Part shown: piece by piece, positions 37,023 to 42,857 of the stretch
Layout of the letters: every line of letters starts with the position of its first letter
Position numbering within the stretch: position 1 is the first letter of the stretch
NCBI RefSeq assembly: GCF_000685235.1
Contig: NZ_ARYH01000001.1
Span: 496,001-560,000 of the forward strand
Reading direction: 5' to 3'
Length of the DNA: 64,000 nucleotides
Source of the DNA: Hyphomonas adhaerens MHS-3
GTDB taxonomy: Bacteria > Pseudomonadota > Alphaproteobacteria > Caulobacterales > Hyphomonadaceae
Notes under the pieces: model-generated
Databases searched by the model: none
What the model was told of the DNA's origin: nothing
Seen by the model: only the letters and a program-made list of their open reading frames with translations
Position numbers and translations under genes: made by a program

Positions 37023-37643
37023 TCAGAGCCGTTCCAGCACATAGACCGTGGCGCCGGCGTTTTCGCCATGCGCCGCAAGGTGCGGGCCGTATTCTTCAAA
37101 GCGGACGGCAACCTCGCCGCTGGCGATGCTGCGCTTCAGGCGGCCGCCATAGTCGTCCATCGCCATGCTCTGGTCATTCAGGGAAAAGGCCAGCAGGTCA
37201 CCGGGGGCAAGGATCGCGAGCAGGTCGTCATAGACCGACGCAGGTGCCCCTCCGACGCTGATCACGCCAATCGCCGTCACCGCCCGGTAGTCCCCCGGCT
37301 TGACCGGCAGGGGCACGGACGGGTCCGTTTCCCACAGCTTGTTATAGATGCCCTTGTTTCGCGCCACGGCGAGCATTTCGCCGGACAGGTCCGTGCCGTC
37401 GATCTGCGTGAAGCCCGCCTCCGCCAGGGCTGCGCCCGACAGACCGGTGCCGCATCCGAAGTCCAGGATCGGCGCGTCCTTGTCCGGCAGGACAGCTGCA
37501 AGCGCTTCGGCGACGCGCCGCGGCGTGGCGTAGCCGGTTTTCAGGATGTCCTGATCGTATTTGCCCGCCCATGCATTGTAGAGGTCGCGCATCCCGTCAT
37601 TGCCGGAAACGCGGTAAACTTTGTCGAGGAAATTATCGGTCAT
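37023..37643 (-). CDS. class I SAM-dependent methyltransferase
   Basis: This 206-residue product has the Rossmann-like SAM site ILDFGCGTGLSGAAL (motif I), IDGTDLSGEMLAVARNKG (motif II) and a later VISVGGAPASVYDDLLAILAPGDLLAFSLND region. The N-terminal LYNAWAGKYDQDILKTGYATP is common in small-molecule methyltransferases. The substrate is unknown. The start ATG 37643 is the first Met of the conserved domain; a longer frame to 37766 would extend into the divergent Kazal gene's promoter. Confidence 0.84.
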   Translation of the reverse strand: MTDNFLDKVYRVSGNDGMRDLYNAWAGKYDQDILKTGYATPRRVAEALAAVLPDKDAPILDFGCGTGLSGAALAEAGFTQIDGTDLSGEMLAVARNKGIYNKLWETDPSVPLPVKPGDYRAVTAIGVISVGGAPASVYDDLLAILAPGDLLAFSLNDQSMAMDDYGGRLKRSIASGEVAVRFEEYGPHLAAHGENAGATVYVLERL

Positions 37644-37809
37644 GGGAGGAACATACCGGAGCGACGGTGCCCAAGTCCATGTGACCAGAGCGAACAGCGC
37701 ACCGCCCTGTGGCCTGATCCAATTCTCCGGACGCACAATGCGGCACACCTTTTGGTTGATCTGCATTCATGCTAAAGTGTTTTCGGGAATAAGGTGGGAG
37801 ACAAATCCA

Positions 37810-38361
37810 ATGTGCAAAATACCTATGGTGACCGTTTGCATCACACTTTTTGCCGCCTGTGCGCCTGGCGCGCCAGTAGCAAAGGGGGAACATACCGTGC
37901 CGATCGGCGAAGTCTGCGGAGGATTCACTGAAGCAACGTGTGAAGGTGACGGCGTTACAGCGTATTGCAAACCCATTCCGGGCTCTGATGATATGTCCGG
38001 CATCTGCACGCCAATTGACGAGGCAGAAGATAACGCCAACACAACCCCAGCGCTGATCGATCCTGATGACGGAAGCATTGACGTCGTTGTTCAGTACGGC
38101 ATCCATTTCCCTTACACCTCGACATGCGGCGGCAAGAACGCTCCGCAAATGTGTGAGAATTCTGACGACGTTTGCCTCCTTCCAATCGGTTTCTGTGGTT
38201 CAACAGACAGTGGTGGACACTGTTTCACGAAGCCGGACGCCTGTACTGAAGAGATCGCCCCGGTGTGCGGTTGTGACGGCAAGACATACACAAATGCATG
38301 CGAAGCCCTCCAGGCTGAAACCAGCATTAGCTACATGGGCGAATGTGGATCGACGGAATAA
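37810..38361 (+). CDS. Kazal-type serine protease inhibitor lipoprotein
   Basis: This is a predicted lipoprotein of 183 residues. The signal peptide ends in LFAAC with Cys17 as the lipidation site. A middle region has several cysteine pairs (residues 36, 44, 53, 66, 106, 115). The C-terminus is a Kazal domain: Cys145-x7-Cys153-Gly-Cys155-DGKTYTNA-Cys164-x14-Cys179, with the hallmark PVCGCDGKTY. Kazal domains block serine proteases by a substrate-like loop. A surface inhibitor could protect against host or competitor proteases. The gene is visibly more AT-rich than its neighbours, which hints at acquisition. The SD-like GGTGGGAG lies upstream. Confidence 0.88.
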   Translation: MCKIPMVTVCITLFAACAPGAPVAKGEHTVPIGEVCGGFTEATCEGDGVTAYCKPIPGSDDMSGICTPIDEAEDNANTTPALIDPDDGSIDVVVQYGIHFPYTSTCGGKNAPQMCENSDDVCLLPIGFCGSTDSGGHCFTKPDACTEEIAPVCGCDGKTYTNACEALQAETSISYMGECGSTE

Positions 38362-40191: not shown

Positions 40192-41085
40192 TCAGGCGAA
40201 TTGCGGCGCGATGCGCAGGTTCCGCACCCAGCCGATTTTCTCCATGGCGAGCAGGATCGTGCCATTGTAATCGACGATGCGGTTCCACACGCCCTTGCGC
40301 GGCCGGTGCAGCGCACTGGTCGGCTGGCTGTGGTGATGGTCGTGGAAGGCTTCGCCGCCTGTCAGCAGACCGATCAGATGGTCGGCCCAGACCGGCGTCT
40401 TCAGGTGGCCCAGCACATTGATGCCGTAGACGGTCGCGTGAAACTGGATGGCCCGGCCGATCACGACACTGGCATGCAGCAGCGCGGTCAGCACCAGTGA
40501 CCCGCCCGCCGCCCAGACGATCAGATAGATCGCCGCCGGGATGACGAGGTGCACGACGAGACTGATTTCATTGTAGAAACGGTCCATCCACACGATGACC
40601 GGCTGGTTCTTCAGCCACATGGCCAGCGGGCGTTCCATGTCTTTCTTGTCGCGCCACAGGATCCAGCCGACCCAGGCCCAGCGCTTGGATTCGAACGGGT
40701 TGTGCGGATCGCCCGGCTTGTCGGAGAACCGGTGATGCTGGGAGTGATAGTTCACCCAGTCTTTCACATTGCCCTGCATGGCGATGACCAGATTGATCAT
40801 GGTCAGCACCTGCCCCGGCACGGCGAGCTCCCCCGCCCTGTGCTGCAGGATGCGGTGCAGCGGGCCGATGCCGGCATTGCAGACGAAAATCGTGAACGCG
40901 ATCACGGCAAACGCGATCAGCATGTACCACCAGTGAAAGGTGAGATGGCTGAGGAAGATGCCCAGCAGGACCATGGTGACGAACAGCGCAACGCCCAGAA
41001 CGGGATACCCGAAAGCCGAAAAGAAGCTGGCATAATTGAACGTTTTCCAGGTCTTCGGAATCGCCAGGGAGCGCGGCAGTGTCAT
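40192..41085 (-). CDS. acyl-CoA/fatty-acid desaturase
   Basis: This is a membrane di-iron desaturase of 297 residues that introduces a double bond into fatty acyl chains, probably for membrane fluidity. The histidine boxes are visible: HRILQHR near residue 77, HSQHHRFSD near 115 and GGEAFHDHHH near 253. Four hydrophobic helices are arranged in two pairs between boxes. It belongs to the delta-9-type acyl-lipid/acyl-CoA desaturases. It is divergent from the zinc-finger membrane protein with 255 bases between the two starts. Confidence 0.9.
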   Translation of the reverse strand: MTLPRSLAIPKTWKTFNYASFFSAFGYPVLGVALFVTMVLLGIFLSHLTFHWWYMLIAFAVIAFTIFVCNAGIGPLHRILQHRAGELAVPGQVLTMINLVIAMQGNVKDWVNYHSQHHRFSDKPGDPHNPFESKRWAWVGWILWRDKKDMERPLAMWLKNQPVIVWMDRFYNEISLVVHLVIPAAIYLIVWAAGGSLVLTALLHASVVIGRAIQFHATVYGINVLGHLKTPVWADHLIGLLTGGEAFHDHHHSQPTSALHRPRKGVWNRIVDYNGTILLAMEKIGWVRNLRIAPQFA

Positions 41086-41308: not shown

Positions 41309-41327
41309 CGTTCGCGTCTTGCGAACG
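41309..41327 (+). promoter_or_regulatory. hairpin just upstream of the zinc-finger membrane protein start
   Basis: CGTTCGC and GCGAACG pair perfectly around GTCTT, 13 bases before the ATG and next to the GGGG ribosome-site region. It could modulate translation initiation. The rest of the 41086-41340 gap shows nothing I can name. Confidence 0.4.
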
Positions 41328-41340
41328 GGGTCAGAACTTC

Positions 41341-42531
41341 ATGGCGGATGAGCGTCTCCTGCAGGCGATCCAGCAGCTTGAGGAACTCGGTGTCGACTTC
41401 GAGTCGAGCCAGGACGAAAGCGAAGTCCGCACGCTGTGCGACCTGACCCCGGATTGCCGCGAAGGCGGGGAAAACTCGCTGGTCCTGAACCCGAGGCTCG
41501 GGACGTTCTGGTGCCCCAATTGCGAAAGCCATGGCAGCTTCACAGACCTCGTCCGCCTGAAGGAAGAGGTCCGCCGCCAGCGCATCCACGAGATGCAGCC
41601 CCTGCCCCTCGATGCGGAACCGATTCCGGATCAGGACGCCGCCGTCCCGGCTGTCCGACCACCGGTTCAGGATGCCGATTTCGCCCCTGTCCCGCGCAGG
41701 GTGAGCCGCAACCTCGCCAAACAGGAGGCGAAAGTCAGGACGCTCGGCGAGGCAGACCGGCTGGAAGAGCGCTTCCCGCACCTGAAACCGAAGGAAAAGA
41801 AACCCTTCAACGGGGAGAAATTCATCATCTCCCTGCTGGCGCTGGTCTTCCTCATGGCCGGGCTTGCCGCGGCGTCGCTGTCCGGCTTCGCCAATTACCA
41901 GGCCTTCTCCAGCTCGGTGGCCGATCCGTTGCAGTCCCGCATCTGGGGCTGGACCGGCGTGATCGCCGCGGTCATCTCTTTCGGCGGGTTTACCTTCTTC
42001 TACTGGCACACGGCCAATCACCGGATGAAGGAAGGCTGGCGCGCCCTGATCTTCGCCATCGCCGGCATGGGCACATCCATCATCGGCACCGAGCGCTACA
42101 TCGCTGCAAACAATACGGCCGCGGCCGAGGAAGTCGTGCGGGCCGACGCCAATCGCGGCGTGCTGGAATCCCAGATCGCGGACTGGCGGCGCCAGCTGGA
42201 CGGCATCCCGCCGGAGACCCGGTCGGTCGAGGGACTGGAGGCCTATCTCTCCGAAGTGGAACGCGTCGGGCGAACCGAGCAGAAACCCTATCGCGATGCC
42301 CAGAATGAACTCGGGCTCGCCAAACGCCGGGATACGCTTCAGGCCAAGATCGAGGCGGCCAATGCCGAACTGCTCGGCCAGGGCAGCGGCAACCTTTTGA
42401 CCGACGCGCAAACCCGCACCAATCTGCCTTCATGGTTCTTCGCCCTGATGCTGGAGGCTTTCTCCAGCCAGGGTACCTCCATCGGGCTGGTCGCCCTGCT
42501 CATCCTCTATGGACGGCGCCGGAAGACTTAA
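41341..42531 (+). CDS. membrane protein with N-terminal CHC2-like zinc finger
   Basis: This is a 396-residue protein of unrecognised full-length family. Residues 30-75 resemble a DnaG-type CHC2 zinc ribbon: Cys33-x5-Cys39, a SLVLNPRLGTFW strand pair, then Cys58-x2-Cys61 and GSFTDLVRL. A proline-rich linker and basic region follow (about 80-160). Then come three membrane helices (about 161-186, 203-224, 234-252), a coiled-coil-like cytoplasmic or periplasmic region (260-345), and a final helix near 366-390 ending in GRRRKT. The zinc finger in DnaG contacts DNA; here it would be tethered to the membrane. The function is unknown. The ATG at 41341 begins the conserved-looking part. Confidence 0.72.
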   Translation: MADERLLQAIQQLEELGVDFESSQDESEVRTLCDLTPDCREGGENSLVLNPRLGTFWCPNCESHGSFTDLVRLKEEVRRQRIHEMQPLPLDAEPIPDQDAAVPAVRPPVQDADFAPVPRRVSRNLAKQEAKVRTLGEADRLEERFPHLKPKEKKPFNGEKFIISLLALVFLMAGLAAASLSGFANYQAFSSSVADPLQSRIWGWTGVIAAVISFGGFTFFYWHTANHRMKEGWRALIFAIAGMGTSIIGTERYIAANNTAAAEEVVRADANRGVLESQIADWRRQLDGIPPETRSVEGLEAYLSEVERVGRTEQKPYRDAQNELGLAKRRDTLQAKIEAANAELLGQGSGNLLTDAQTRTNLPSWFFALMLEAFSSQGTSIGLVALLILYGRRRKT

Positions 42532-42559: not shown

Positions 42560-42680
42560 TCCCCGTTCCTTTGGAACGGTCGGGAGAGGCCATGCATAAG
42601 CCCTGTGAAGTTCCAATAGCTGGTGCTTCTCCATCTTACCTGCTTAACGGGTCAGTTCAGAAGGAACTGACCCTTTTTTT
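42560..42680 (+). ncRNA. candidate small RNA, about 120 nt
   Basis: The candidate begins after -10-like sequences (42547-42559), opens with a perfect CCGTTCC / GGAACGG hairpin with loop TTT (42563-42579) and ends in a rho-independent terminator. A GGGAGAGG sequence 4 bases before an ATG (42592) could start a short peptide, but that frame runs straight through the terminator, so I favour a noncoding product. It could also be the 3' untranslated region of the preceding gene. No known RNA family is recognised. Confidence 0.45.
42649..42680 (+). terminator. strong rho-independent terminator
   Basis: The perfect 10-bp stem GGGTCAGTTC / GAACTGACCC around AGAAG is followed by seven T. It ends the candidate small RNA or the long 3' end of the zinc-finger membrane protein transcript. 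Confidence 0.92.
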
Positions 42681-42857
42681 GCGCCTGTCCCGAGGGCACC
42701 GGCCGGGAGCAGCCCTGCAACCCGGCTTGGACTTGCATTCGGCGCGCTCCGCCCCATAGTCGCGAACGGGAGGAAGCGCGGCGCGTGCAATGGCAATTGC
42801 AGGTGACGGCAACTTTCCGTCGTGTCTGGACCTGTGACGAGGAGGCGATACGCCCCC

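Follow-up and report, generated by a model that had tools for sequence, protein, structure and literature searches.

An orphan four-helix membrane protein of Hyphomonas and Henriciella with a primase-like zinc ribbon and LexA-type boxes at the promoters of its relatives

The gene and its locus

The window, a stretch of 64,000 nucleotides from Hyphomonas adhaerens MHS-3, carries an open reading frame for a membrane protein with an N-terminal zinc ribbon (Table 1). The reading frame was found where the initial annotation had placed it, comprises 396 amino acids and has a single match in its own Hyphomonas genome. For pairs of close relatives (15 pairs, 14 for the N-terminal helix) dN/dS ranges from 0.04 to 0.17, depending on the segment. 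Complete or in part, it occurs in all 42 Hyphomonas genomes examined and in 65 of the 105 genomes of the family, and it is therefore a real gene and not a chance ORF.

The gene stands alone and divergent from a desaturase-like gene, as had been described before. Downstream lies a hairpin resembling an intrinsic terminator, although the two terminator-like sites found in the region compare with 1.8 expected in shuffled sequences, and the next ORF with a Pfam match starts at 42822. Elsewhere in the window a cysteine-rich ORF (37621-38361, plus strand) has a C-terminus that was recognised by eye as Kazal-like and possibly encodes a secreted protease inhibitor.

Table 1. Features of the locus (window positions; residue numbers refer to the 396-aa protein)
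Feature	Position	Strand	Basis
Desaturase-like gene, divergent	40192..41085	-	Conserved linkage, histidine motifs
GAAC-N7-GAAC site, GAACGGGGTCAGAAC	41323..41337	+	Overlaps ribosome-binding region; both half-sites, poor spacer
CDS, membrane zinc-ribbon protein, 396 aa + stop (ATG at 41341, stop ends at 42531)	41341..42531	+	ORF, homologue start sites, one genome match
N-terminal helix and zinc ribbon, residues 1-84	41341..41592	+	Model, PDB matches, 61-sequence alignment
Candidate ligands C33; C39; C58; C61	41437-41439; 41455-41457; 41512-41514; 41521-41523	+	
Variable proline-containing linker, residues 85-152	41593..41796	+	pLDDT <50, majority fraction 0.24
Membrane helices 1-3, residues 157-256 (157-191, 196-225, 229-256)	41809..42108	+	Model, hydropathy, charge
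Highly conserved helical hairpin, residues 258-362, probably periplasmic	42112..42426	+	Model, conservation, charge
Membrane helix 4, residues 364-391 (E372, S376, Q377, T379 nearly invariant)	42430..42513	+	Model, conservation
Intrinsic-terminator-like hairpin, then seven T	42649..42673	+	Terminator scan

Architecture of the protein

An AlphaFold2 model of the full protein was built with 46 homologues and reached a mean pLDDT of 76.8 (five models, 58.7-76.8) and a pTM of only 0.45. The long helices and the N-terminal ribbon mostly have pLDDT values of 80-90. In the modelled N-terminus a helix (2-15) precedes four strands (29-31, 47-50, 55-58 and 63-66), a short helix (37-42) and a further helix (67-84). 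The two cysteine pairs pointed out earlier, 33/39 and 58/61, are present, with SLVLNPRLGTFW between them. Residues 86-153 fall below a pLDDT of 50 and are predicted to form a disordered linker, behind which helices were modelled at 157-191, 196-225, 229-287, 296-309, 315-347, 350-359 and 364-391. This agrees with the three membrane helices followed by a fourth that had been read from the sequence; the segment in between, then called a coiled coil, is modelled as a helical hairpin and contains the block RSVEGLEAYL...QKPYRDAQNELG.

By Kyte-Doolittle hydropathy (19 residues) only TM1 is strong (2.51). TM2, TM3 and TM4 reach 1.49, 1.19 and 1.46 (family means 1.47, 1.52 and 1.60), and the hairpin 0.18. 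As these hydropathy values are borderline, TM2-TM4 are assigned mainly from the model and from conservation. Lysines and arginines number seven before TM1, one between TM1 and TM2, three between TM2 and TM3 and four in the C-terminal tail, which suggests a topology with both termini in the cytoplasm and the hairpin in the periplasm. The hairpin itself carries 14 K+R and 18 D+E.

Across 61 sequences the membrane core is the most conserved part of the protein (majority fraction 0.73-0.83, versus 0.45 in the ribbon and 0.24 in the linker). With the same 15 close pairs dN/dS is 0.04 in the core, 0.17 in the ribbon and 0.15 in the linker; purifying selection thus acts on the ribbon, though in this set not more strongly than on the linker. 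Invariant or nearly invariant in the core are W222, H223, R228, E231, E372, Q377 and a KPYRD block in the hairpin. Sequence and structure searches with the membrane core gave no clear match to a known family or PDB structure. The best reading of the product is an orphan protein of the inner membrane, with four membrane helices, that belongs to the Hyphomonas/Henriciella group.

Nine models in a library of viral structures matched the full model at probability 1.00, and for three of these E was <= 0.001. One of the nine, K4HNY1 (E 0.057), carries a CHC2-type annotation; the other eight, uncharacterised or unnamed proteins of 269-547 aa, may be structural relatives of the core.

Distribution in the Hyphomonadaceae

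The core was found in four genera of the family. Besides Hyphomonas, the gene occurs, complete or in part, in 19 of the 29 genomes of g15 (taken to be Henriciella, since one of its contigs also belongs to a named record), in one genome of g18 and in three of g21; it is absent from six of the ten family genera sampled. G021 retains a 3' remnant only (L103, contig G021:C36), the gene of G100 (L119) is cut off near a contig end, and an extra N-terminal match in G009 stops at the end of its contig. At the level of the order the core was matched in 42 of 299 genomes, among them G057 (E 7.8e-4), whose match lies in an ORF rich in arginine and glycine and was judged spurious. At the level of the class two of 385 genomes matched, both Hyphomonas. 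Three homologues filed under Acidobacteria (L047, L048 and L052) are nested inside Hyphomonas clade B in the tree and were taken as mis-binned contigs. An origin from phages or plasmids was rejected, as collections of phages, plasmids and viral contigs gave no sequence match to the protein.

Ten g15 genomes lack the gene, and in the seven of them that were read (L211-L217) the desaturase gene and a gene that flanks the target elsewhere in g15 remain. Since these neighbours are kept, loss of the target from this position is the most likely explanation in these seven genomes.

The N-terminal zinc ribbon and its ligands

When a model of residues 1-84 (mean pLDDT 77.9, pTM 0.60) was compared with the PDB, the zinc domains of primases and Twinkle came first (nearest 1d0q, 2au3, 8gao and 7t8b), and the N-terminus is predicted to adopt the fold of a primase zinc domain. 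On the level of the modelled fold the primase-type ribbon of the initial annotation thus stands, and the suggested structure prediction bears it out. The suggested Pfam comparison does not: CHC2 (PF01807, cut-off 24.9 bits) does not match the window protein, and it matches 19 of 46 homologues weakly at E <= 1 (best E 0.0021). Zn_ribbon_4 (PF13717, cut-off 30.3 bits) does not match the window protein either, and two of the 46 homologues match it weakly. Profile comparisons, in which CHC2 was represented by 30 DnaG sequences, gave a divided answer. The profile of Hyphomonas plus g18 prefers CHC2 (91-94%, versus 14-20% for two other ribbons), and that of all 61 sequences gave 93-95% for CHC2 versus 75% for Zn_ribbon_4 and 25% for IS1595. 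However, the outgroup members resemble generic ribbons (CHC2 31-71%, versus 84-86% for control ribbons). A PDB sequence search with the N-terminal profile returned only three nucleocapsid chains, all at E > 1, and one with the full profile returned nothing; as neither gave a real match, sequence alone does not tie the protein to the primase structures.

A zinc finger of nucleic-acid type tethered to the membrane had been called unusual, but zinc ribbons in such a position are frequent. Zn_ribbon_4 is common in the class (a match in 29 of 41 genomes), and of the 29 such proteins extracted 27, one of them in the window's own genome, have the same layout of ribbon, linker and membrane helix.

For the survey of ligands 61 distinct proteins were counted, with identical sequences dropped, G021 left out and the cut-short G100 (L119) included. 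Four candidate ligands, which would bind zinc, are kept in all 61. Four cysteines occur in 45 (43 plus L223 and L104), arranged as CxxC...CxxC in most outgroups and as C-x5-C...C-x2-C in Hyphomonas clade A and g18. In the remaining 16, C33, H36, C39 and C58 are present and C61 is missing, which gives clade B its pattern CPLHxxC...C. C39 and C58 are invariant, and H36 and C61 never occur together. As the 16 sequences form one clade (support 100/100), the replacement of C61 by H36 was a single exchange that has been kept through later divergence. Orthologues of a single gene thus document, as a natural series, how zinc ligands can be exchanged.

The chromosomal DnaG of most Caulobacterales sampled (L121-L150) has itself lost the CHC2 ligands and reads SPFT...CFSSG or DFSSG instead, for example at G000:C1:1581616-1581897 (L145); C..H...C..C is retained in only 4 of 30 extracted DnaG loci. 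Owing to this loss, more ligands remain in the membrane protein than in the primase encoded by the same genome.

Conserved neighbours

The desaturase-like gene is the only neighbour in the window that is kept across the four genera. Its product has no Pfam match at E <= 1e-5 and is presumably desaturase-like by its motifs HRILQHR, HSQHHR and HDHHH, which were read by eye. In all 26 Hyphomonas-type loci the gene is divergent, with midpoints 1.0-1.3 kb apart; it is linked at 1.6-8.1 kb in 16 of the 20 distinct other loci, and 63 of the 65 genomes with the target have it. Such linkage and co-occurrence could be explained by a protein that works with the desaturase-like enzyme in membrane-lipid metabolism, with the ribbon as a structural or sensing adaptor. 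We regard this as improbable: 16 of the 105 genomes have the desaturase and lack the target, and in five loci (L104, L112, L114, L117 and L223) a cupin gene lies between the two.

In part of Henriciella a gene of the FUR family, probably Zur, adjoins the target or is near it. Together with a ligand identity that shifts while four ligands stay, this would suit a sensor or regulator of zinc homeostasis, whose ribbon would signal the zinc or redox state to the membrane part. This reading is very unlikely, as no FUR-family gene is seen at the Hyphomonas, g18 and g21 loci compared, the gene sits between the cupin gene and the target in one Henriciella group, and no conserved His or Cys apart from H223 stands out in the membrane core.

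LexA-type boxes at the promoters of relatives

The LexA motif of alphaproteobacteria is GTTC-N7-GTTC (PMC3323433). Alignment of the promoters revealed an 18-bp box in Henriciella-type loci, which is of the GAAC-N7-GAAC type with one half-site mismatch. We then scanned 60 distinct promoters (identical ones dropped) for a half-site pair within 120 nt upstream of the target start; the promoter of G100 (L119) was left out, and at least five further g15 genomes with the gene stand outside the 17 g15 promoters. A pair with at most one mismatch is present in 34 of the 60, compared with 6.5% in 20000 random windows and with 32 of the 270 further conserved ORFs at these loci. For perfect pairs the numbers are 13 of 60, 0.37% and 3 of 270. 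The 34 box-bearing promoters comprise 17/17 of g15, most of these with one half-site mismatch, 2/3 of g21, 5/5 of the H. atlantica type, 7/10 of the window type and 3/6 of L040-L045, all three with one mismatch. The 15 clade-B promoters that were scanned have no pair, and neither do those of L011-L013, L104, L106, L007, L032 and L051. A putative LexA-type box is therewith present at the promoter in g15, g21 and the H. atlantica type.

When four Henriciella genomes were searched with the box, 13, 15, 9 and 15 matches were obtained, versus 5, 0, 2 and 0 with the reversed pattern. Boxes precede lexA, uvrA, ssb, recN, imuA, a comM-like and a rarA-like gene and a photolyase gene, of which each was seen in one genome or in two; several other matches have no recognisable repair gene behind them. 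The identities of the box-associated genes (lexA, uvrA, ssb, recN, imuA, comM, rarA, uvrD, rmuC and photolyase) are our assignments, made by eye from the first residues. The lexA box of Henriciella, AAACATAACAGGAACA, is the same AAAC-first variant and has the same layout relative to a TTGAC box as the box of the target. Of 26 Hyphomonas lexA promoters listed, 19 carry GAACACATGTAGAAC as their box and seven a variant of it; in this genus uvrD, photolyase, comM-like and rmuC genes likewise have boxes upstream. The Hyphomonas pattern is weakly enriched over the reversed control (14-23 versus 5-14 in eight genomes; 23 versus 11 in G000, 14 versus 12 in G008). In G024 the only two sites with zero mismatches are those of lexA and of this gene, with a pattern that had been loosened after the target box was seen and hence was not blind. 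A score matrix was built from five Hyphomonas repair-gene sites without any lexA site; among 23 distinct perfect-pair sites five of the top six are target promoters, and the better target sites score 12.5-18.4.

Several further observations were made around these boxes. At L058, L060 and L118 a Zur-like FUR-family gene lies divergently beside the target with a LexA-type box in between. In two Henriciella genomes (L231 and L252) a small ORF (MRE[VI]KFRG..GKAYSFVRM) follows a LexA-type box. Two recN-like genes of Henriciella, L235 and L242 (G076:C4:192621 and G072:C1:762197), have such boxes just upstream; alphaproteobacteria are reported to be without LexA control of recN (PMC3323433). A literature search on SOS in Hyphomonas and Henriciella returned nothing on this subject among titles and opening lines of abstracts.

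The promoter in the window itself gave a different picture. Its site scores 5.5 in the matrix and ranks 21 of 23, and is probably not a working LexA box here. The ten window-type promoters are divided into four with a perfect pair, three with one mismatch and three with none. Control by LexA is probably ancestral and seems to have disappeared or become weak in several lineages of Hyphomonas, among them the species of the window. The 5' leader also contains an inverted repeat (GTTCGC-GTCTT-GCGAAC, 41310-41326), which is partly common to close relatives and overlaps the weak GAAC site.

Possible function

As LexA probably controlled the gene in the ancestor, its product is best interpreted as a membrane protein of the DNA-damage (SOS) response. 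In full, we tentatively propose, at somewhat less than even confidence, an ancestrally SOS-controlled inner-membrane protein with a cytoplasmic primase-like ribbon and a probably periplasmic hairpin, which may serve as a checkpoint for damage. Purely by analogy, DNA damage in the ancestor would induce the gene through LexA, which would bind at the box. The cytoplasmic ribbon, on its flexible linker, might then dock on or sense a cytoplasmic partner, and the membrane and hairpin part might act on a target in the envelope, for example the division or budding machinery. Any checkpoint role would be dispensable, as the gene is absent from 10 of the 29 g15 genomes.

The boxes could also be incidental, or serve only few lineages, and the protein could be an orphan membrane protein with an ordinary structural zinc ribbon and without a role in damage. 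The commonness of the ribbon-linker-membrane layout speaks for this, as do the many Hyphomonas promoters in which boxes are missing or poor. Yet the boxes turn up repeatedly in separated groups, clearly more often than in the random and neighbour controls, and share their sequence style with the lexA box of the same genus, and we hold this explanation to be unlikely.

The charge of the N-terminus bears on the nature of the partner. Residues 1-84 have a net charge of -11 to -2 in all 61 proteins (mean -6.4), versus -2 to +3 (mean +1.0) in 30 DnaG domains of 80 aa and means of +3.1 in 14 Zn_ribbon_4 and +4.6 in 30 IS1595 stretches of 40 aa. Most of the difference sits in the N-terminal helix; the ribbon alone has a mean of -2.3, versus -1.0 in DnaG. 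This acidity appears to weigh against binding of nucleic acids, and because the ribbon domain is acidic, a protein would be a likelier partner than DNA. The initial annotation had favoured a DNA- or RNA-linked role. A membrane-anchored nucleic-acid binder, whose ribbon contacts ssDNA or the replisome like primase ribbons and tethers it to the membrane, would be in line with the nearest folds and with the SOS-type boxes that link the gene to DNA damage in relatives, and how DNA is driven through the stalk of Hyphomonas has been called unknown (PMC6650430). With a negative charge throughout the family, even though the ribbon alone differs little from DnaG, and with outgroup ribbons nearer to generic ribbons than to CHC2, the chance of such a binder seems slim.

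The same passage of DNA through the stalk makes another idea attractive, in which the SOS-induced four-helix protein would serve stalked and budding alphaproteobacteria as a lineage-specific checkpoint: the ribbon would read a partner from stalled replication or repair, and the hairpin would restrain division or the entry of the chromosome into the bud. As the gene is also found in Henriciella and is absent from six of ten family genera, the idea receives no particular support, and we consider it rather doubtful.

Comparison with known systems

The ribbons of DnaG (CHC2), Twinkle and T4 primase resemble the N-terminus in the modelled fold, in the order of the elements and in the pattern LxxNxxxGxFxCxxCxxxGxxxxLv. 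In contrast to the C-x2-H...C-x2-C ligand set of DnaG CHC2, the window protein has C33-x5-C39-x18-C58-x2-C61; it is acidic, is not matched by the family model and is fused to a membrane core. No TOPRIM or RNA-polymerase catalytic domain of a DNA primase was detected in the Pfam scan, and the remainder of the protein consists of membrane helices and the hairpin.

The Zn_ribbon_4/MJ0042 membrane proteins (PF13717) share the N-terminal ribbon, the linker and a membrane helix behind it. They differ in that nearly all have one strong membrane helix, a basic ribbon and CxxC...CxxC only, and they lack the four-helix core with its hairpin; the window protein does not match their model.

We know of no sequence relation between the window protein and inhibitors of the SidA or YneA type. 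By function, however, SOS-induced membrane inhibitors of division, SidA of Caulobacter (PMC4211646) and YneA (PMC13396833), are the closest precedent. The likeness, that of damage-induced membrane proteins, concerns the relatives of this gene that bear an SOS box. SidA differs in its size, which is 29 residues (PMC4211646), compared with 396 in the window protein. If the SOS link holds, the family would represent a new type of damage-induced membrane protein, in which a primase-type zinc ribbon is combined with a conserved envelope module.
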